Origin: Phycisphaerales bacterium
GTDB lineage: Bacteria; Planctomycetota; Phycisphaerae; SM23-33; FEN-1343
Reading direction: 5' to 3'
Assembly: GCA_003171335.1 (NCBI GenBank)
Contig: PMYD01000089.1
Span: forward strand, 1-34,957
Length of the DNA: 34,957 nucleotides
Shown here: positions 23,508 to 31,125 of the stretch, piece by piece
Layout: the number at the start of each line of letters is the position of its first letter
How positions within the stretch are numbered: position 1 is the first letter of the stretch
The notes under the pieces: generated by a model
What the model saw: only the letters and a program-made list of their open reading frames with translations
Told to the model about the DNA's origin: nothing
The model's database searches: none
Program-made: the position numbers and the translations under genes

Positions 23508-23522
23508 GGCGCAAACCTGCCC

Positions 23523-23921
23523 AACTGGTGAATTTCACCAGTTGACCCTCTTGCCCTGGCGCCTCGACACGGCAACTGGAGCATTTCTCCACCCGGCCGC
23601 TCTAGATCGCGCCGTGGCCTCCAACTGAGGAATTTCCTCAGTTGACCCCAGAGCCCGCCAGGATCAACTGGAGAATTTCTCCAGTCGGCCGCTCTAGATC
23701 GCGCCGGGGCCTCCAACTGAGGAATTTCCTCAGTTGACCCCAGAGCCCGCCAGGATCAACTGGTGAATTTCACCAGTACCCCGCCGGGCCGCAACTGAGG
23801 AATTTCCTCAGTTGACCCCAGAGCCCGCCAGGATCAACTGGTGAATTTCTCCAGTATCCCGCCGGCCCGCAACTGAGGAATTTCCTCAGTTGAAAGGATC
23901 AACTGGTGAATTTCACCAGTT
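23523..23921. repeat. Array of ten 21-bp palindromes of alternating type
   Basis: Ten palindromes start at 23523, 23574, 23623, 23666, 23715, 23758, 23793, 23836, 23871 and 23901. Each has 10-bp arms around a central T. From the third on, type A (arm AACTGAGGAA) alternates strictly with type B (arm AACTGGTGAA or AACTGGAGAA). The outer AACTG and inner GAA/TTC are constant, while the middle bases change together on both arms. The second copy is degenerate and the eighth has one mismatched pair. Recurrent spacers include GACCCCAGAGCCCGCCAGGATC-like (A to B, 22 bases) and two other forms (B to A). Confidence 0.92.
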
Positions 23922-24221
23922 CACCAGCCTGGGCGCCAGGAAGGAATTCAAACATAAGTTGTTATTTACGATTACCTTATGTCTTGTACACAGCCCGGGC
24001 CGGCCGTGATCCACCCTATTCGATTGTCAAATACTCAGTCCGCCCGCACACTGCAAAGCCATTTCATAGCTATGCACCTGAAGAATCCGCCGTCGCTTTC
24101 TCACTCAAGGACACGAAATAAGTCCCAAGGATAGTAGTCTATCACACTTTTCCCGCTTGTAAAGAAAAAAATCTTGATCGGTCGGCGATTTGGAGCTTCT
24201 TCGAGAGTGACGGCTTCTTTC
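23922..24221. other. Non-coding stretch, nothing recognised
   Basis: A mixed-composition stretch between two repeat systems. GC falls well below the window average around 23950-24180. A 71-codon open frame at 23906-24121 has no ribosome site and begins inside the palindrome array, so I do not call it. No RNA gene, promoter or terminator is evident. Confidence 0.5.
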
Positions 24222-24423
24222 GTCCCGTAGGGACGCATCGATAGTAGCCCAGCAATTCATTGCTGGGTAAGCGATTGCCATTGGCCCCCCAGTCCCGTAG
24301 GGCCGGCAGGCCTCGTTGGCATCGACCGAGCCTTTCTGTCGTCCCGACAGAACTCCACCGGAATTTCGACCTCCAATCCCAGCGATAAATCGCTGGGCTA
24401 TTCTCGGAGAGTCCCTACGGGAC
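24222..24423. repeat. About 200-bp inverted-repeat element with nested hairpins
   Basis: Bounded by GTCCC-GTA-GGGAC (24222-24234) and its exact inverse GTCCC-TAC-GGGAC (24411-24423). Inside, in mirrored positions, are two hairpins CCCAGCAAT...ATTGCTGGG (24248-24267) and CCCAGCGAT...ATCGCTGGG (24378-24397), whose stems differ by one compensated base pair. The layout is that of a non-autonomous palindromic element. Confidence 0.8.
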
Positions 24424-24663
24424 TAACAAATACGTTCAGGAAAAACGTGGGGAGCGACAAGGGCGCAAGCCCGGGGCTATTCTCAAAGGATTCCGCAGAC
24501 TGACCGGCGGTGATGCCCTGCTTGTACTCAAAGAGTTCGGCGGGGTCCCGATCCTTTCGCCGCGGGCGTTTCACGACAGGCTTCGCTAAAGGCTGGAGGC
24601 TGGAGGATTCTGTATTGACAATCGATCCTTGATACCACAGTTATTCATTTGGTCCGGCCTAAA
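24424..24663. other. Non-coding stretch, nothing recognised
   Basis: Lies between the inverted-repeat element and the pyrimidine tract. It contains a CGCTAAAGGCTGGAGGCTGGAGG segment, split as short direct repeats of GGCTGGA, but no gene, RNA or clear promoter. Confidence 0.4.
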
Positions 24664-24744: not shown

Positions 24745-24834
24745 CGGTTCACCCCCACGTGCGTGGGGAAGACCGCTTATCGCGCGCATAGACAAAGCCG
24801 GAGCACGGTTCACCCCCACGTGCGTGGGGAAGAC
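24745..24834 (-). CRISPR. Minimal type I-E CRISPR: two 29-bp repeats, one 32-bp spacer
   Basis: Two identical 29-bp repeats (24745-24773 and 24806-24834) with a 61-bp period and one 32-bp spacer (24774-24805), the classic I-E geometry. On the minus strand the repeat begins GTCTTCCCC, has the hairpin CCCCACG-CA-CGTGGGG, and ends GTGAACCG, matching the 8-base 5' handle of I-E crRNAs (ATAAACCG in E. coli), so the array runs in the same direction as the cas genes. The first repeat begins only 8 bases after the cas2 stop codon, leaving no room for a normal leader. No third or degenerate repeat is visible on the far side. Confidence 0.9.
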
Positions 24835-24842
24835 ACTTCATT

Positions 24843-25124
24843 CTAATGGGTTTTCGGCGTCTTGGGCAGCGTAAGTCCCTCGAAATCCGCCATGATTCTA
24901 GACGTATCTCCAGCCGATACGACCGAAAAGCCCTGTTCCGTATTATTTGACTGGATCATAAGAGCGGCACCATCGCGTAGGCCGTCCACCACCCTGTCCC
25001 AGAGCAGGTCACGGACGCGGGCGGATAGATGACCCACAAAGACGCCCGTCTTGGGCTGGATAAGCCAGCGCGTCAACTCACCCCGGAGAGAGGTCGTGAC
25101 CCGTTCCAGAATCAGAATCACCAT
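24843..25124 (-). CDS. cas2: CRISPR-associated endonuclease Cas2, type I-E
   Basis: A 93-residue Cas2e that would form the adaptation complex with Cas1 and help insert new spacers. Typical I-E sequence: MVILILERVTTSLRGELTRWL, then KTGVFVGHLSARVRDLLWDRV. The start is the ATG at 25124 (GAAGGA upstream), which overlaps the 3' end of cas1 by 47 bases, so it is translationally coupled. It is the last cas gene before the repeats. The C-terminal tail (TLPKTPKTH) is short, as is usual for the family. Confidence 0.93.
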   Translation of the reverse strand: MVILILERVTTSLRGELTRWLIQPKTGVFVGHLSARVRDLLWDRVVDGLRDGAALMIQSNNTEQGFSVVSAGDTSRIMADFEGLTLPKTPKTH

Positions 25125-26085
25125 GATCGGTTCCTTCGTCAGGCAAAGGCGGCTTGAGTTCAAGAATCTGGCTGATTGGCGTGTCGGCGGAAATGCCACC
25201 TGGCTGCCAAAGTTCGCTGGGGCGGGCCTCGTCGTCGGCAAATTCGTCTTCCTGCGCCGCCTGCACTTCTGGGATGTCCAAAACCTTGCGGATATCCGGC
25301 AGGATGCGTTCGATCAGGCGCTGGGCGGCAAAGGCGTCGCGGCAGCCCAGACGGACCCGGCGTTCCACATCTGCGGGATTCTTGGCGGCCTCGAACGCCG
25401 CCGGGATCACAAACTGCGCCTTGTACAGGTCAGCAATGTCGTACACGAAGGAAAGCTGCTTGCCGGTATGGATGAAGCCCAGGGCGGGCGAGTATCCGCC
25501 GGAGAGTATGGCAGCATGAACGATCCCATAAAGGCAGGCGTTGGCCGCCGAGAGGGCTCGGTTGACCGGATCGGCGGCGCCCCAGTCCTTGCGTTGGTAG
25601 TTGCGGCCTTCCCAGGGCACTCCCGAGCTTCGGGAAGCGTCGGCATACGCCTGGCGAACCCGAACGCCCTCCCTGCCACGCAGTTGTTGGAGGGTCATAT
25701 TCCCATCCACAGACTCGGCGAATCGCATGGTGTACATGCGGACGACAACCTGAAGGCGGCGGATGTCGTCGCTGACCAGGCGAGCCTGGCGGATGATGTT
25801 GCGGCTGTGGCGCGCACCCCCAAGCCCATGGGCGTAAAAACGAACTCCCTGCTCGCCGGACCAGATGATCTGGCAGTTGTTCTCGCCCAGGGCACGCACG
25901 GCGGCATGCGTGATCGACGTGCCCGGACCCAAGACCAGCACGGCCAGGCTGGCTGCCGGGACAGGCGTCGTGCCCTCGACATCATGGACGGCGATGGCTT
26001 TTTCGGCCTGCTCGATGACGGCATGCTCGACGTACAGATACGACAGCTTGTCGGAGAACTTTGGCAACTCGTGGAGGTTTTTCAT
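25078..26085 (-). CDS. cas1: CRISPR-associated endonuclease Cas1, type I-E
   Basis: A 335-residue Cas1e, the integrase of spacer acquisition. The metal-binding residues are all present: Glu139 in LRGREG, His206 in GFIHTGKQ, Asp216 and Asp219 in YDIADLYK, matching E. coli Glu141/His208/Asp218/Asp221. The start is the ATG at 26085, with AAGGGG 7 bases upstream; the frame opens at 26133 but nothing supports that start. The C-terminal 50 residues are acidic and low in complexity (AQEDEFADDEARP, DEGTDHGDSDSGTGHD) and longer than in E. coli, and overlap cas2. Adaptation looks intact. Confidence 0.95.
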   Translation of the reverse strand: MKNLHELPKFSDKLSYLYVEHAVIEQAEKAIAVHDVEGTTPVPAASLAVLVLGPGTSITHAAVRALGENNCQIIWSGEQGVRFYAHGLGGARHSRNIIRQARLVSDDIRRLQVVVRMYTMRFAESVDGNMTLQQLRGREGVRVRQAYADASRSSGVPWEGRNYQRKDWGAADPVNRALSAANACLYGIVHAAILSGGYSPALGFIHTGKQLSFVYDIADLYKAQFVIPAAFEAAKNPADVERRVRLGCRDAFAAQRLIERILPDIRKVLDIPEVQAAQEDEFADDEARPSELWQPGGISADTPISQILELKPPLPDEGTDHGDSDSGTGHDLSPG

Positions 26086-26154
26086 GGCACACCCCTTGGC
26101 GTTGGTCGCTATGCACTTGTCAAGTAATACCATCGGCCAAGTGCCGAGGCGAAA

Positions 26155-26988
26155 TCACTGAAGCGGTAAGAGAGACAGCAGGCCAAAGCCAAAGGCCTTG
26201 GCGTTGCCGAGACCTTCAATCACCGCGTCACGAAGTCGATCCGGGTCGGTGCAGACCAGAACACCATCGAACAGCCCCGCGTTGAAGCACTTCACGGATA
26301 TCTTTGTCGGGTCCTGGTTGTCAGGCTTCCGGACGGCGGTTCGGAGAGCTTCCATGAACAGAGGCACCGGTTCGTCCTCAAGGGGGCGAAATCCGCGTGA
26401 AGCGCCCATGCTTTTCAGCCACTCGCGCCAGGGGTCCCATCGGGCACGGAGAAGCCGATCTCGCTCCGCCGGATCAGGGGGCAGTGTGTCTGGAACAGGC
26501 CCTGGTCGAACAAGCATCTCCGCGCGTTTCTTCCGAGGCAAGTGGGGCTTCTTTCTCATCTTTCCGCTGGGGTCGAGGATGCTCCTGCGTCTGACGACGT
26601 TTGCCAGCAACCGAAAGCGATACGTCTGATCCCGGCGCGGAGCGGGTTCAAATTCGCGCATGCTCGGTTTGGCGGCGAGAAGATATGGAGCATTCTGAAA
26701 AGCATACTCCCACTCGGGACGCTGCACAGATTGCACCAGAATGGTTGGGGTTCCATGGCGTTCGATTCGGAATAAGAAGCCGGCTCCTTGGCGCGTGGGC
26801 TTGGGTTCGGCAATAGCCGGGCCTTTCCATGTGGCCAGGAAAAAGGGGTCTTCCGCCCGGCGCGCCTCATCCGGAAACGCCATCCACAATCGCTGATGAA
26901 CGCGGTAGATATCCCCAAGCCATTGCCGCCCGGGGGGGTGGCGGTCGGGGTCGCCGCTAACATTGACCTGCAGAAGTGAAAGGAACAT
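26155..26988 (-). CDS. cas6e: CRISPR RNA endonuclease Cas6e (CasE/Cse3)
   Basis: A 277-residue Cas6e that would cut the precursor at the repeat hairpin and stay bound to the 3' end of the crRNA in Cascade. The N-terminal RRM-like domain carries the probable catalytic histidine, His31, in IYRVHQRLWMAF, and the C-terminus ends with the G-rich loop of the family (GLGNAKAFGFGLLSLLPL). The internal segment is somewhat longer than in E. coli CasE (199 residues). The ATG directly follows the stop codon of cas5 with no gap, and 69 bases separate it from cas1. Confidence 0.93.
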   Translation of the reverse strand: MFLSLLQVNVSGDPDRHPPGRQWLGDIYRVHQRLWMAFPDEARRAEDPFFLATWKGPAIAEPKPTRQGAGFLFRIERHGTPTILVQSVQRPEWEYAFQNAPYLLAAKPSMREFEPAPRRDQTYRFRLLANVVRRRSILDPSGKMRKKPHLPRKKRAEMLVRPGPVPDTLPPDPAERDRLLRARWDPWREWLKSMGASRGFRPLEDEPVPLFMEALRTAVRKPDNQDPTKISVKCFNAGLFDGVLVCTDPDRLRDAVIEGLGNAKAFGFGLLSLLPLQ

Positions 26989-28125
26989 TCAGCGGCCCTC
27001 GCGCGCCCATGAAGTGGGCATTTCATCCAAGAAGTTGGCGCCATCGCTTCGGCCGGCTTCCAATAGTTCGCGCCGACGCCCAAGACGCCGCCCAGCCAAG
27101 AGATGCTCGATCTGCCGGAGGATTGCCATCCGTTGGTTCGGGTCCGACGGATCGACGCGCAGTTGGTGCATGTCGTCGCCATATTCAAGCATCGTGCAGG
27201 CATCGTGACACAATTTGCACATGGACCGAAGAGTCTCAACACGGGCATCGCCGTAATCCACGTGGTGTACATCGACCGCAGGCGACTTGCAGAAGACGCA
27301 AAGGTCATTGTCGTGCTCCAGGCGCAAGCGCCTAAGGGCATCCCACCCGCAGCCGTAGGGGTCGTGGCGATCCGGCCGGTAAGGCAAGGCCTGAATCGGG
27401 TCGCCCACAGGCACGGTCACCTGTCCGGCGATGACCCACCGCGGCCCCTGACTGTTGTAACCGAAGGCTCGGGGCTCGTCGAAGACGAGCCTCGCGCCGG
27501 CGGGCGGGGGCGAACCGGGCGAGTGCTCGATGAAGGTATCCAGGATTCGTGTCGCCCGGCGGTCCCGCCAGTCGATGGCGCTGATCCTGGGGCACCACGA
27601 GACAGAGGATAAAGCTTCCGTCAGCGTTTCAAACAGCCCCGTGGCGACGAACACCGGCTCGGCTGGAATGCAGCACTTGCGCCCCAGGTAAATGGGCCAG
27701 ACCGGGTCTTCCATCTTGCTGGCGCAATCGCTGATCGTGTCGGCCGCCCCAAGCAAAGCGACGAGAAAGGAAGCATCGTACAGGTATTCCCGCTTGGAAA
27801 TCAGGGTCTCATACTCGCCGGTCGAGGCGGTCTTCTTGATCCCGCCCTCGGCTTTTCGGATCCCGATCCTTGCTCCTGCCGTGTGGTAGTCCCAGCCGGA
27901 GGTTCCGCCGCGATCGACGCGCACGCCCATGCGCAATCGCATCAGCGGCGCCAGGGCCTGGGCCGAATCTTCACGCGGCTTGCCCATCGCACAGAGGAGG
28001 AGCCCCAGCACGCCAGATTTGCTCGGGTAAAGGTCGGTGCGGCGCAATTGAAAACGAGACGAGGTTCCCCACGCTTGCATTGGACCGGCCAGGCGCAGCA
28101 ACAGGGTGTTGTCGGCGCTGCTCAT
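26989..28125 (-). CDS. cas5e: Cas5e with C-terminal HNH nuclease domain (Cas5-HNH)
   Basis: A 378-residue protein, against about 225 for ordinary Cas5e. Residues 1-250 are a standard Cas5e: LLRLAGPMQAWGTSSRF, PSKSGVLGLLLCAMG, KREYLYDASFLVAL, VWPIYLGRKCCIPAEPVF, PRAFGYNSQGPRWV. Residues about 260-345 form an HNH domain: Cys276-x2-Cys279 (LCVFCK), His287-His288 (VDVHHVD), Cys303-x2-Cys306-His307 (MCKLCHDAC). Four Cys make a zinc knuckle around a beta-beta-alpha metal site. HNH domains cut DNA. With no Cas3 encoded here, the likely reading is that this domain cuts the target within Cascade. The ATG overlaps the cas7e stop by four bases (ATGA). The usual HNH Asn position reads Thr298. Confidence 0.93.
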   Translation of the reverse strand: MSSADNTLLLRLAGPMQAWGTSSRFQLRRTDLYPSKSGVLGLLLCAMGKPREDSAQALAPLMRLRMGVRVDRGGTSGWDYHTAGARIGIRKAEGGIKKTASTGEYETLISKREYLYDASFLVALLGAADTISDCASKMEDPVWPIYLGRKCCIPAEPVFVATGLFETLTEALSSVSWCPRISAIDWRDRRATRILDTFIEHSPGSPPPAGARLVFDEPRAFGYNSQGPRWVIAGQVTVPVGDPIQALPYRPDRHDPYGCGWDALRRLRLEHDNDLCVFCKSPAVDVHHVDYGDARVETLRSMCKLCHDACTMLEYGDDMHQLRVDPSDPNQRMAILRQIEHLLAGRRLGRRRELLEAGRSDGANFLDEMPTSWAREGR

Positions 28126-29417
28126 GCGGTCGCTCCCGCTTTCTCCGGCTTGAGCAGGAGCCGGCCGACGTGTTTGACCAATTCGTCGAGGGTGTGAACC
28201 CGCTCGTGATTGCTCTTAAGCTCGACCGAAGCGGGGCCGATGGCCAGAAGCACGCGCCGCATACCTGGGGGCGCGAAGGCCGCCGCGACGCAATCGAGGT
28301 AGTCCCCAAAGGCGGTGGCGGACTCCGTCATGAGGTTGTGCCCCATGCCGCCCTCCAAAGCTTGAAGAAACGCATTGGCGTAACTGATCGGCCGTTTTGC
28401 CTTGGAAACCTCGACCAGGATCAGTCCAGGAACCGAATGGCTGGCAAAGCTATTCTGCTTCCCTGTGGGGTTGGCCAGCGCCGCGGCTTCGACGAGTACT
28501 TCGGCCACTTGCGCCGCGTCCCTGTCGCTCAGGGATGGAAGATGTTTTCTCATCGAATCCAGATCGAGGTTGAGATACTTGTAGTAAACCGCCGCGCTAT
28601 AAAAGGTTTCGGTCTCGCCGGATCCCAGAAACGCGGCGCCGGCCCTATCCGTCTGACTGTTGGCGTATACGTGTTTGCGGTCATCCATGGCCGTGAAGTA
28701 GTCGCTCTCGACCAGCGTCTCGTGCGTGCTGATCGCGTGGGCAACCTGACAGGCCGCTTCGACGTTGACAACTAGATCGCTGGTCGTCATTCTCCCGAAC
28801 AACCCGATGTCAACAGTAAGAGACTTGCTGGCATTCGAGACATCCTGGACAAACCGCTCGATTTCATCCTTGAGCTGCTTTGCCTTCTCCTTCGTAGGTC
28901 TTTGCTTCAACGCGCGGCCAATGAACAGGCTGTAGGCTTGGTCATTGCGCTTCCGCAGAGCGGCAAGCAACTCGGCGATCTTGTGTGCGAATGGCTGGGG
29001 GAAGAAGACTAGTTGCCCCGTCTGGCCTGCCTTGCCATTCACTTCCGTCGCATTGTCCGCGGATTCCTGCGCATCGCGTTCGTCCTGGGCATCGTCTGAT
29101 TCGCTCGCACGCTTGTCCTTCTTGAACTTCCCAGCAAGGGCAAGCATAATGCCATCCAACTCGTCTTTAGGAACGCCTGGATTCCCGGCCTTGAGTGCAT
29201 CGGCCACCATCCGCGGCAGGTACGTCGTTCTGTCTGCCAGGGCGGCTCCGAACGCCTCCTTGAATTGCGCGGATCGTCGGATGTTCCGCTTGAGGCATTG
29301 GCTGCTGATGCGCCCGCGCGTCACCCCGCCGAAGATGCATTTCTTGGGCTGGCCCGTTTCGTCGCGGTTCAGGTTGCCGGGCGGCATGCTCTGAAGCATG
29401 TGAATCTGGATGAACAT
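28122..29417 (-). CDS. cas7e: Cascade backbone subunit Cas7e (CasC/Cse4)
   Basis: A 431-residue Cas7e that polymerises along the crRNA spacer and forms the Cascade backbone. The diagnostic N-terminus is MFIQIHMLQSMPPGNLNRDE, then FGGVTRGRISSQCLKRN; the middle has MTTSDLVVNVEAACQVAHAIS and the C-terminus LLLIKPEK-like and SNHERVHTLDELVKHV-like segments. It is longer than the usual 350-365 residues; part of the excess is an acidic, low-complexity insertion at about 97-133 (KFKKDKRASESDDAQDERDA). A good GAAGGAG ribosome site precedes the ATG. The cas8e stop is only 25 bases upstream, so there is no room for cas11. Confidence 0.95.
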   Translation of the reverse strand: MFIQIHMLQSMPPGNLNRDETGQPKKCIFGGVTRGRISSQCLKRNIRRSAQFKEAFGAALADRTTYLPRMVADALKAGNPGVPKDELDGIMLALAGKFKKDKRASESDDAQDERDAQESADNATEVNGKAGQTGQLVFFPQPFAHKIAELLAALRKRNDQAYSLFIGRALKQRPTKEKAKQLKDEIERFVQDVSNASKSLTVDIGLFGRMTTSDLVVNVEAACQVAHAISTHETLVESDYFTAMDDRKHVYANSQTDRAGAAFLGSGETETFYSAAVYYKYLNLDLDSMRKHLPSLSDRDAAQVAEVLVEAAALANPTGKQNSFASHSVPGLILVEVSKAKRPISYANAFLQALEGGMGHNLMTESATAFGDYLDCVAAAFAPPGMRRVLLAIGPASVELKSNHERVHTLDELVKHVGRLLLKPEKAGATA

Positions 29418-29442
29418 GGGAATCTCCTTCTATTGCGCGATT

Positions 29443-31125
29443 TCAGTCAATGAGTTGGTTAAGGCCGTAACAGAGGCCTGCCCAGTCAATAGGTTCTGGT
29501 TTTCGCAGCCGCACGTTCCCGTCGAGCAACCGACCAATCTCCGCTTCAAGCCGATGACCTCGCGGGAATGACGCAGGATACGGAGAGGCGCGCGGCCCAT
29601 CGGTGCGCCGCTCGCGGAGCTGTCGCTTGGGCAGGGCCTCGAGCGGACAGAAACCCGCGTTGGCCCTGAACATTCGGGCGCGGGACGGGACGACCGCCAT
29701 CAATTTGAGAACAAGCCATGCAGCCTTCCTGGACGGAAGCCCCTGTACCTTCTTCCTTCGAAGCGACCAGAATAGGCCGGTGAACAGATCGAAGGCGGCG
29801 GGGCATTCGTGCATCTTCTTGTAGGCGGCAGCCGACAGAACCCCCCAGTCCGCATCCGTCAGGAGATGCGCGGCCGCCCGCACAAACCGCGCGGCGCCCC
29901 CGTCGCTGCTCGCCCGTCGGGGCGCAGACCAGCCATCGAGTCCAACAGGCTCTTCAGGCAGGTCGGCCGGCAATATGGCGCGAACCGCATCCGGCGAAAG
30001 AACGGTCAAGTCCAGTTGGCGGTGGTCAAAGGTCTTGTTGTTCGCGGGATTCGTGCAGGGGATGATGAGATGCCAACCCTGATGCCCGGGGTTCGCCTCC
30101 GAAACGGCGGATCTGGGAGCATCCTCTCGCTTCAGCAGGAAATGCAGGTCGCCGCCATTGACGGCCTGTGGCTCTTTGCCCCTCTTGTCTTCGCCACTCT
30201 TGACTGTCGTGTAAGTCGCATCTGGCCGATAGAAGGCCGAAGGATCCTCCCAGACGAAGGGTATTGTCTTGTTGCCATTGCCCTTTCGTGCCGTGGTCCA
30301 TTCGTTCTTCGCATAATCGATTGGACCGACAGCAACGACTTGCGTCTGGCCGCATCGCCAACAGACGTCGGCTGTTTCGGGCGAGCGAAGGTGTACGCGC
30401 CTGGGGTTCCAGGTGAGCGCCTCGAGGTACGGAATCGCCGCATCCCTCTTCCTGGGCTTGAAATGCCCCGTCCACTTCGCCGCGCCGGCATCGCCGGGGA
30501 GGGGAACGAGATTCAGGCCAAGTGTTATCGCCAAGTTCGGACCCGCTGCGAGTGCCATGATGGGCGGAGCGTTGTGTATGGAAGGCGACTTACCCGCCCC
30601 GCCCGATTGACTCCAGGGAACCAAGCGGAGCATGCCGATAGTCGCGCATCGTAGGCACAGTCGCATGCGCTTGTCGTCGCCGTGGTGAAAGTGGGCTATG
30701 TTCGTGCCACAGGCGAACTCGGCGGAAAGAGAACCGGCCGACATGTCCCGGCCACCTCGGGCCGACGGATCCTGGAGGAATGGGGCCTTGCCGTCAAACA
30801 AAGAGAAGCTCGTCGCCTCTGCCGCGATGGCATCGAGCACGGATCGCGGCATGCGGCCCCGGAGTAACGACTCGCGCATTTGCTCTACCCCTCCCGCTGC
30901 ATCCGCCTTCCAGTAAAGTAGAGAAAGAAGGAACCGATGGGATGCAAACAGGTCTAGTGGGCTGGAAAGAGCTAGGCAGCGAATTGAGCTTGCACGTTTC
31001 AGGGCATCCAATGCTGAGCAGATCTCGACTTCAGCCTTGAGGTTCATTACCTCCAGCCAGCCATCCGTCAAGACGTTCCACCTCGCCTGCTGCCCAGGCT
31101 GCTTATGAGACCCAGTGTCCCGCAT
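29443..31125 (-). CDS. cas8e: Cascade large subunit Cas8e (CasA/Cse1)
   Basis: A 560-residue Cas8e, the subunit that recognises the PAM and starts DNA unwinding. Family hallmarks: RWNVLTDGWLEVMN at 15-28, Cys157/Cys160 (LCLRCATIGML), PSIHNAPPIMAL at 181-192, Cys255/Cys258 (VCWRCGQ), and the C-terminal helical bundle after about 405. The start is the ATG at 31125 with GGGGAG 7 bases upstream; the frame is open to 31434 but that stretch lacks Cas8e features. It is the first gene of the cas operon. In usual I-E systems this subunit also recruits Cas3; with none encoded here, that surface may be free to diverge. Confidence 0.93.
   Translation of the reverse strand: MRDTGSHKQPGQQARWNVLTDGWLEVMNLKAEVEICSALDALKRASSIRCLALSSPLDLFASHRFLLSLLYWKADAAGGVEQMRESLLRGRMPRSVLDAIAAEATSFSLFDGKAPFLQDPSARGGRDMSAGSLSAEFACGTNIAHFHHGDDKRMRLCLRCATIGMLRLVPWSQSGGAGKSPSIHNAPPIMALAAGPNLAITLGLNLVPLPGDAGAAKWTGHFKPRKRDAAIPYLEALTWNPRRVHLRSPETADVCWRCGQTQVVAVGPIDYAKNEWTTARKGNGNKTIPFVWEDPSAFYRPDATYTTVKSGEDKRGKEPQAVNGGDLHFLLKREDAPRSAVSEANPGHQGWHLIIPCTNPANNKTFDHRQLDLTVLSPDAVRAILPADLPEEPVGLDGWSAPRRASSDGGAARFVRAAAHLLTDADWGVLSAAAYKKMHECPAAFDLFTGLFWSLRRKKVQGLPSRKAAWLVLKLMAVVPSRARMFRANAGFCPLEALPKRQLRERRTDGPRASPYPASFPRGHRLEAEIGRLLDGNVRLRKPEPIDWAGLCYGLNQLID

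Follow-up and report, generated by a model that had tools for sequence, protein, structure and literature searches.

How does a type I-E clustered regularly interspaced short palindromic repeats (CRISPR)-Cas operon attack its target when no cas3 accompanies it? The question is raised by the window analyzed here, the 34,957-nucleotide (nt) contig PMYD01000089.1 (C7 in our numbering) of a Phycisphaerales bacterium (GCA_003171335.1) whose genome assembly comprises 4.2 Mb in 169 contigs and is 90.9% complete. On its minus strand, the window carries cas8e, cas7e, cas5-HNH, cas6e, cas1, and cas2, followed by a CRISPR array. The operon looks complete: the open reading frames of all six genes are intact, the best PADLOC matches of their products are Cas8e, Cas7e, Cas5e, Cas6e, Cas1e, and Cas2e, and Pfam concurs, which confirms the order, direction, and coordinates given in an original prediction made from the sequence. 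We consider it highly likely that this is a planctomycete type I-E2 system in a compact version, whose large subunit fuses Cas8e, minus its C-terminal helical bundle, to Cas11 and which would work as proposed below.

The Cas5 protein should be examined first. Over residues 1–354, it can be aligned from one end to the other with 8yb6_A, a solved Cas5-HNH chain (388 residues; E 1e-64), ordinary Cas5e being a much weaker match (4n77_A, 2.7e-29). This match, the Pfam Cas5 domain at residues 7–182, and the alignment with relatives together show an HNH domain at the C-terminus of a Cas5e, as had been predicted. Six of the seven metal and zinc residues named at the time (C276, C279, H288, C303, C306, and H307) are invariant in all seven rows that cover the HNH, namely the window and six relatives, and putatively have that role; the seventh, His287, is not conserved and is Gln in the other six. 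We take H288 to be the general base, as it is in HNH enzymes in general. In PDB entry 9jxs, Ala replaces the His that aligns with H307. One might suspect that such a complex binds target DNA without cutting it, as a silencer, because the loop that follows H288 in the window's HNH is four residues shorter, by a deletion, than in the six aligned relatives, and cutting by this branch is a prediction. However, neither the window nor the aligned relatives have lost any of the six site residues, and we regard a silencer as very unlikely.

Cas3 itself was not found. The window contains no intact cas3 and no Cas3_HD match, in line with the prediction, which had also set a genome-wide search as a test beforehand. 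In the 90.9%-complete genome, that search gave no Cas3_HD match and no intact cas3. Four cas3_core matches all fell below the cut-off, and Pfam shows them to be Mfd, RecG, and two DEAD-box helicases; two Cas3-like_C_2 matches, also below the cut-off, lie on the same Mfd and RecG frames. With a Cas3 model built from three references, no intact cas3 was found in any of 75 loci (the window, L020, and L022–L094). A Cas3 held out of that model scored 4e-65, and at least 2.5 kb upstream of cas8 was in view in 54 of the 64 loci with a cas8 gene. Short cas3-like pieces do occur just upstream of cas8 in three loci (L093:3689-4036, E 1.9e-7; L044:2331-2621, 6.9e-4; L091:157-321, 0.013) and are likely relics of a lost cas3. 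A cas3 elsewhere in the genome could act with this Cascade, given that 9% of the genome is absent from the assembly; but with no HD domain match, no helicase match over the cut-off, no intact cas3 in the related loci, and the Cas1 of this operon as the only one in the assembly, we hold this to be highly improbable.

A second question is where Cas11 resides. The gap between cas8e and cas7e is 25 bases, with no room for cas11, and PF09485 (Cse2) has no match in the host genome; as no separate cas11 was found in this way, the search led to a fusion. Residues 412–480 of the cas8e product match the Cas11 of the Cas5-HNH Cascade (8yb6_K) at E 1.3e-6, or at 4e-7 when the tail is used alone, and a hidden Markov model (HMM) of Cas11 built from five standalone relatives matches the same place in the tail (E 7.4e-12 for a nominal database of 1000). 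From 24 sequences, AlphaFold2 predicts that the tail forms a helical domain (predicted local distance difference test, pLDDT, 87.7) whose best PDB fold match is again 8yb6_K (template modeling, TM, score 0.61; probability 1.00). In the full-length model (pLDDT 72.7), the first part matches Cas8e chains; all 23 matches at E ≤0.001 are Cse1/CasA or Cascade, with the Cas8 of the Cas5-HNH Cascade on top. The gene therefore encodes a Cas8e-Cas11 fusion. Naming it cas8e was right for the part that carries the Cse1 Pfam domain, but overlooked the Cas11 domain in the same gene. Cas11 is thus present without a gene of its own, and the locus has four effector genes versus the five separate ones of the characterized Cas5-HNH locus.

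The fusion is also shorter than one might expect. A Cas8e model built from relatives covers only residues 12–311 of the window's protein. Between two anchors, K364 in Cas8e and D446 in Cas11, there are 76–82 residues in all seven complete compact fusions (the window, L022–L026, and L028) and 177–185 in all three longer fusions (L029, L030, and L035). Among 20 sampled separate Cas8e proteins, 19 have 134–152 residues after the first anchor, the exception being L070 (95 residues), which starts at a contig end; the reference proteins of E. coli and Thermus have 146 and 144. This shorter spacing means that approximately 100 residues are missing from the compact fusions, and they are the helical C-terminal bundle of Cas8e. 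In the full-length model, the stretch from residue 384 to the Cas11 domain is free of helices. We found no description of this loss in the accessible texts returned by our literature search.

Is the compact form peculiar to one genome? A scan of 84,980 species genomes with patterns from the HNH alignment returned 72 loci in many phyla, one of them labeled archaeal. Among viral contigs, the HNH alignment gave one locus (L094) and a single-protein scan gave none. In whole-genome samples, 8 of 100 relatives and 7 of 392 members of the phylum matched, both counts including the window's genome. Of the 75 loci, cas8 and cas11 are separate in 56 and fused in ten, and nine could not be judged. When 74 Cas5-HNH proteins are placed on a tree, nine rows including the window form one clade (support 100/99): the seven compact fusions; L027, where two overlapping frames hold cas8 and cas11; and L031, whose contig starts at cas7. 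The bundle is lost in all seven members with an intact, complete fusion gene. Their hosts and those of the other two belong to Planctomycetota and Nitrospinota, apart from one that is unassigned and one whose record bears the title deltaproteobacterium.

If loci whose state is unknown are left out, the compact state takes one change on this tree and all fusions take two. When the unknown loci are counted as others, all fusions jointly take five changes, a number not distinguishable from that of shuffled labels (mean 6.1; 130 of 500 shuffles were as low). Upon rooting with canonical Cas5e, the three outgroup rows split up and long branches met, so no conclusion is drawn on which branch is older; a quick rooted tree of the Cas5 part only still keeps the nine compact rows together (Shimodaira-Hasegawa-like approximate likelihood-ratio test 93), with one fork drawn open. 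Cas7 is longer in this clade as well, spanning 388–420 residues in eight loci (419 in the window, the others being L022–L028) versus a median of 347.5 in 56 others, which include canonical references and four of which exceed 470. The added length stems from an insertion in the first half of the protein, which may make up for the lost contacts.

Other loci in the collection depart from the usual layout in their own ways. L020:6328-8259 (G083) encodes a Cas5-HNH-Cas6e fusion in one 644-residue frame on a very long tree branch; its 650-residue Cas8e was considered as a further Cas11 fusion and rejected, the Cas11 score not being significant (E 0.36). In L021/L036, the Cas5 part has been lost, the HNH is in frame with RHS-like repeat sequence, and cas8 and cas7 were not found, with the array still at 38 repeats. 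L094, an IMG/VR contig of 8259 bases filed as viral, holds cas8, a cas11 split into two pieces, cas7, cas5-HNH, and the beginning of cas6. The Cas5-HNH operon L049 sits in a genome whose title reads Thermoplasmata archaeon and reflects either a transfer into archaea or a binning error. As for plasmids, 217 records match the Cas5 part, but none covers 80% of Cas5-HNH and none is therefore evidence of plasmid-borne Cas5-HNH.

How, then, does the locus relate to known systems? The Cas5-HNH kind is already known: it was tested in 2023, its structures have been solved, and it has been named I-E2. The original prediction was correct that such systems had been described, but its "known from metagenome mining" leaves out the biochemistry, the editing in human cells, the structures, and the subtype. 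The closest comparison is the I-E system of Candidatus Cloacimonetes (Altae-Tran et al. 2023, PMC10910872; PDB 8yb6, 8yha, 8zlu, 8zm3, 8zol, 8zp7, 8zp9, and 9jxs), which shares with the window the end-to-end alignable Cas5 with its C-terminal HNH, the same Cascade proteins, a 32-nt guide, and the absence of cas3. It has five effector genes, a separate Cas11 of 174 residues, and a Cas8 of 535–546 residues as deposited, whereas the window has four, with Cas11 fused to Cas8e and the Cas8e bundle missing.

Subtype I-E2 (Makarova et al. 2025, PMC12669027) is typified by an HNH on Cas5 in an I-E background, typically without Cas3. The window has the HNH on Cas5e with intact site residues, the Cascade genes cas8e, cas7e, and cas6e (all by Pfam and PADLOC), Cas11, and no detected cas3; five separate effector genes are what it does not have. 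The accessible part of PMC12669027 makes no mention that we found of a Cas8e-Cas11 fusion. Fusion of cas8 and cas11 "in some cases" is reported for two HNH-bearing type I variants (PMC10910872), and the four-gene window is thus not excluded from I-E2. Its sub-branch may deserve a name of its own. Canonical I-E (E. coli K-12, L104) resembles the window in gene order, Cas1e, Cas2e, repeat type, and 29/32 nt geometry, but has cas3, a separate casB, two Cas11 chains per complex, and a Cas5 without HNH; what the window lacks of it is the Cas3 helicase-nuclease, the Cas8e C-terminal helical bundle, and the separate Cas11. Cas8-HNH (I-F4; Hirano et al. 2024, PMC11459484) likewise has an HNH in Cascade in place of Cas3, but in Cas8f and with a separate origin (PMC10910872). 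The longer fusions of L029, L030, and L035 also have Cas8 and Cas11 in one frame, but with approximately 100 more residues between the parts and elsewhere in the tree.

Interference without Cas3 by an HNH-bearing Cascade is the published behavior of Cas5-HNH systems (PMC10910872, PMC11822464, PMC12669027). The tested system requires a protospacer adjacent motif (PAM), makes its cuts in both strands past the PAM-distal end so that 3′ overhangs remain, and cuts single-stranded DNA collaterally; catalytic HNH mutations abolish its editing, and removal of Cas11 lowers editing to ~6% from up to ~13% (PMC10910872). By analogy, the window's HNH-bearing Cascade very probably interferes without Cas3 too, and very probably works like the tested system except that its Cas11 cannot leave Cas8e.

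The array would be transcribed on the minus strand, and Cas6e would cut the transcript into CRISPR RNA (crRNA) that carries a 32-nt guide behind an 8-nt 5′ handle. One Cas8e-Cas11, approximately six Cas7, one Cas5-HNH, and one Cas6e would assemble on it, judging from published relatives. The Cas8e part would read the PAM, a dependence also taken from the relatives, and the guide would open an R-loop. The HNH, which belongs to Cas5 but is situated between Cas6e and the Cas11 domain, would cleave both strands a few bases past the PAM-distal end if its position is that of the relatives, and Cas3 would take no part. A cut at the 5′-handle end of the crRNA, as originally proposed, is not supported, since that end is PAM-proximal and the published cut is PAM-distal.

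A fusion fixes the number of Cas11 copies, and one should therefore look at subunit counts. The Cas5-HNH Cascade entries in PDB list 48 Cas7 chains in eight entries, eight Cas5-HNH in eight, six Cas8 in six, and six Cas11 in six; six E. coli Cascade entries list 54 Cas7, nine Cas5, and 18 Cas11. There is thus one Cas11 (per six Cas7) in a solved Cas5-HNH Cascade, which fits a 1:1 fusion, versus two in E. coli, and two per ordinary complex are also tabulated in a review (PMC11127173). In the Cas5-HNH structure, the HNH sits in the inner belly between Cas6 and Cas11 (PMC11822464). It appears to occupy one Cas11 place out of the two in ordinary I-E Cascade, from which we infer that a single Cas11 welded to Cas8e is enough. 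Cas3 docks through Cas8 (PMC11127173), and we conjecture that loss of the bundle followed loss of Cas3 for this reason.

It is an evenly balanced question, in our judgment, whether this amounts to a distinct HNH-Cascade architecture. With Cas3 gone and the HNH in one Cas11 place, the Cas8e bundle would have become dispensable and been deleted, and the remaining Cas11 would have been welded to Cas8e, giving a four-protein, strictly 1:1:1:1 (with approximately six Cas7) precise DNA cutter. If true, it would need fewer genes than any other I-E-type nuclease complex.

Other type I subtypes make free Cas11 by internal translation. If the fused gene did so as well, a complex could hold more than one Cas11. 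In-frame start codons do lie near the Cas11 domain in all seven compact genes, with a Met at the same place (M438 in the window) in each, but none of these seven Met codons is preceded by a Shine–Dalgarno-like motif. By the structure model, a start at M438 would leave out helices one and two of the Cas11 domain (residues 410–431). The position is mostly Leu in standalone Cas11s and so may be a core residue, and the solved Cas5-HNH Cascades contain one Cas11 chain. We consider an internal start quite unlikely and prefer a single Cas11, tethered to Cas8e.

HNH-bearing Cascades cut at a defined place, without shredding, which makes them relevant as editing tools, and they are a case of nuclease swap in CRISPR evolution. 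The compact branch offers an effector with one gene fewer and Cas11 fixed at one copy, and poses the question of what the C-terminal bundle of Cas8e is for. Efficient cutting by compact complexes would mean that the bundle is mainly there for Cas3-type interference or for the second Cas11.

Several points weigh against a compact I-E2 system that works in this way. The fold match of the tail to 8yb6_K has an E of 0.029 despite its probability, and the Pfam and NCBIfam models give the tail no name. Chain counts reflect what was modeled, and two of the eight Cas5-HNH entries list no Cas8 or Cas11; moreover, Cas11 is a separate protein in the published complex and tethered here. At the stated completeness, cas3 could lie in the missing part of the genome. 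Finally, the array has a single spacer whose target was not detected.

The array had been predicted correctly, except that the single spacer was overlooked. It consists of two identical 29-nt repeats (GTCTTCCCCACGCACGTGGGGGTGAACCG, minus-strand sense) and one 32-nt spacer. The repeat pair exceeds chance (0 of 100 shuffles), and no other copy within three mismatches exists in the assembled genome. Read on the minus strand, the repeat and the geometry agree with those of relatives and E. coli, which indicates that the crRNA runs with the operon. The search for a spacer target gave one weak 24-nt match in phages (E 0.3), nothing in viral contigs (scan with every sixth base free), and in the host genome only the array itself.

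One spacer, hardly any leader, and no cas3 might together suggest a decaying or inactive locus. At least 14 repeats are common in relatives, versus two here, and one relative (L021/L036) has lost its Cas5 part, its HNH now joined to unrelated sequence. Nevertheless, all six genes are open, the HNH site residues are kept, as are those of Cas1 (E, H, D, and D where E. coli has E141, H208, D218, and D221), and the compact clade is spread over several phyla. The cas2 stop lies 8 nt from the first repeat (24835–24842), and a gap of ≤30 nt is found in 38 of the 54 Cas5-HNH loci with an array found (median 16.5; 61 loci had cas2). It is found in 1 of 15 canonical I-E loci, a set of 14 from plasmids and one E. 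coli chromosome that is not phylogenetically matched. Being common across Cas5-HNH loci, the short gap is no sign of decay; these loci leave hardly any space for a leader, and the leader signals may lie inside the cas2 gene. The more degenerate repeats are at the far end in nine of 21 closed arrays and at the cas2 end in two, with ten ties. Having just one spacer is unusual, although this may stem from the assembly. All told, decay seems unlikely, and we favor a working compact system.

Table. Features of the compact Cas5-HNH locus, in window coordinates
Feature	Position	Strand	Basis
CRISPR array	24745..24834	-	Repeats 24806-24834 and 24745-24773 (29 nt, identical); 32-nt spacer 24774-24805
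cas2 (93 aa)	24843..25124	-	Pfam Cas_Cas2CT1978 2.9e-29; PADLOC Cas2e
cas1 (351 aa)	25078..26133	-	TIGR03638 cas1_ECOLI 1.9e-111; alignment with E. coli Cas1
cas6e (277 aa)	26155..26988	-	Pfam 9.5e-33; PADLOC Cas6e
cas5e-HNH fusion (378 aa)	26989..28125	-	Cas5 Pfam at residues 7-182; 8yb6_A whole-length match 1e-64
HNH core of Cas5, ~residues 272-330	27136..27312	-	Alignment of site residues
cas7e (431 aa)	28122..29417	-	Pfam 2.6e-87; insertion versus most relatives
cas8e-cas11 fusion (560 aa)	29443..31125	-	Cse1 Pfam 5.9e-27 at 17-280; Cas11 match 412-480; family HMM 7.4e-12; structure models
Cas11 domain of fusion, ~residues 405-560	29446..29913	-	Cas11 sequence matches; fold match 8yb6_K, TM 0.61

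Two further observations concern the DNA downstream of the array. Short palindromes (CAACTGAGGAATTTCCTCAGTTG and variants) recur every 30–100 bases at window positions 23517–23925. At 24210–24435, there is an imperfect 58-nt inverted repeat, its arms 78% complementary and 110 nt apart.

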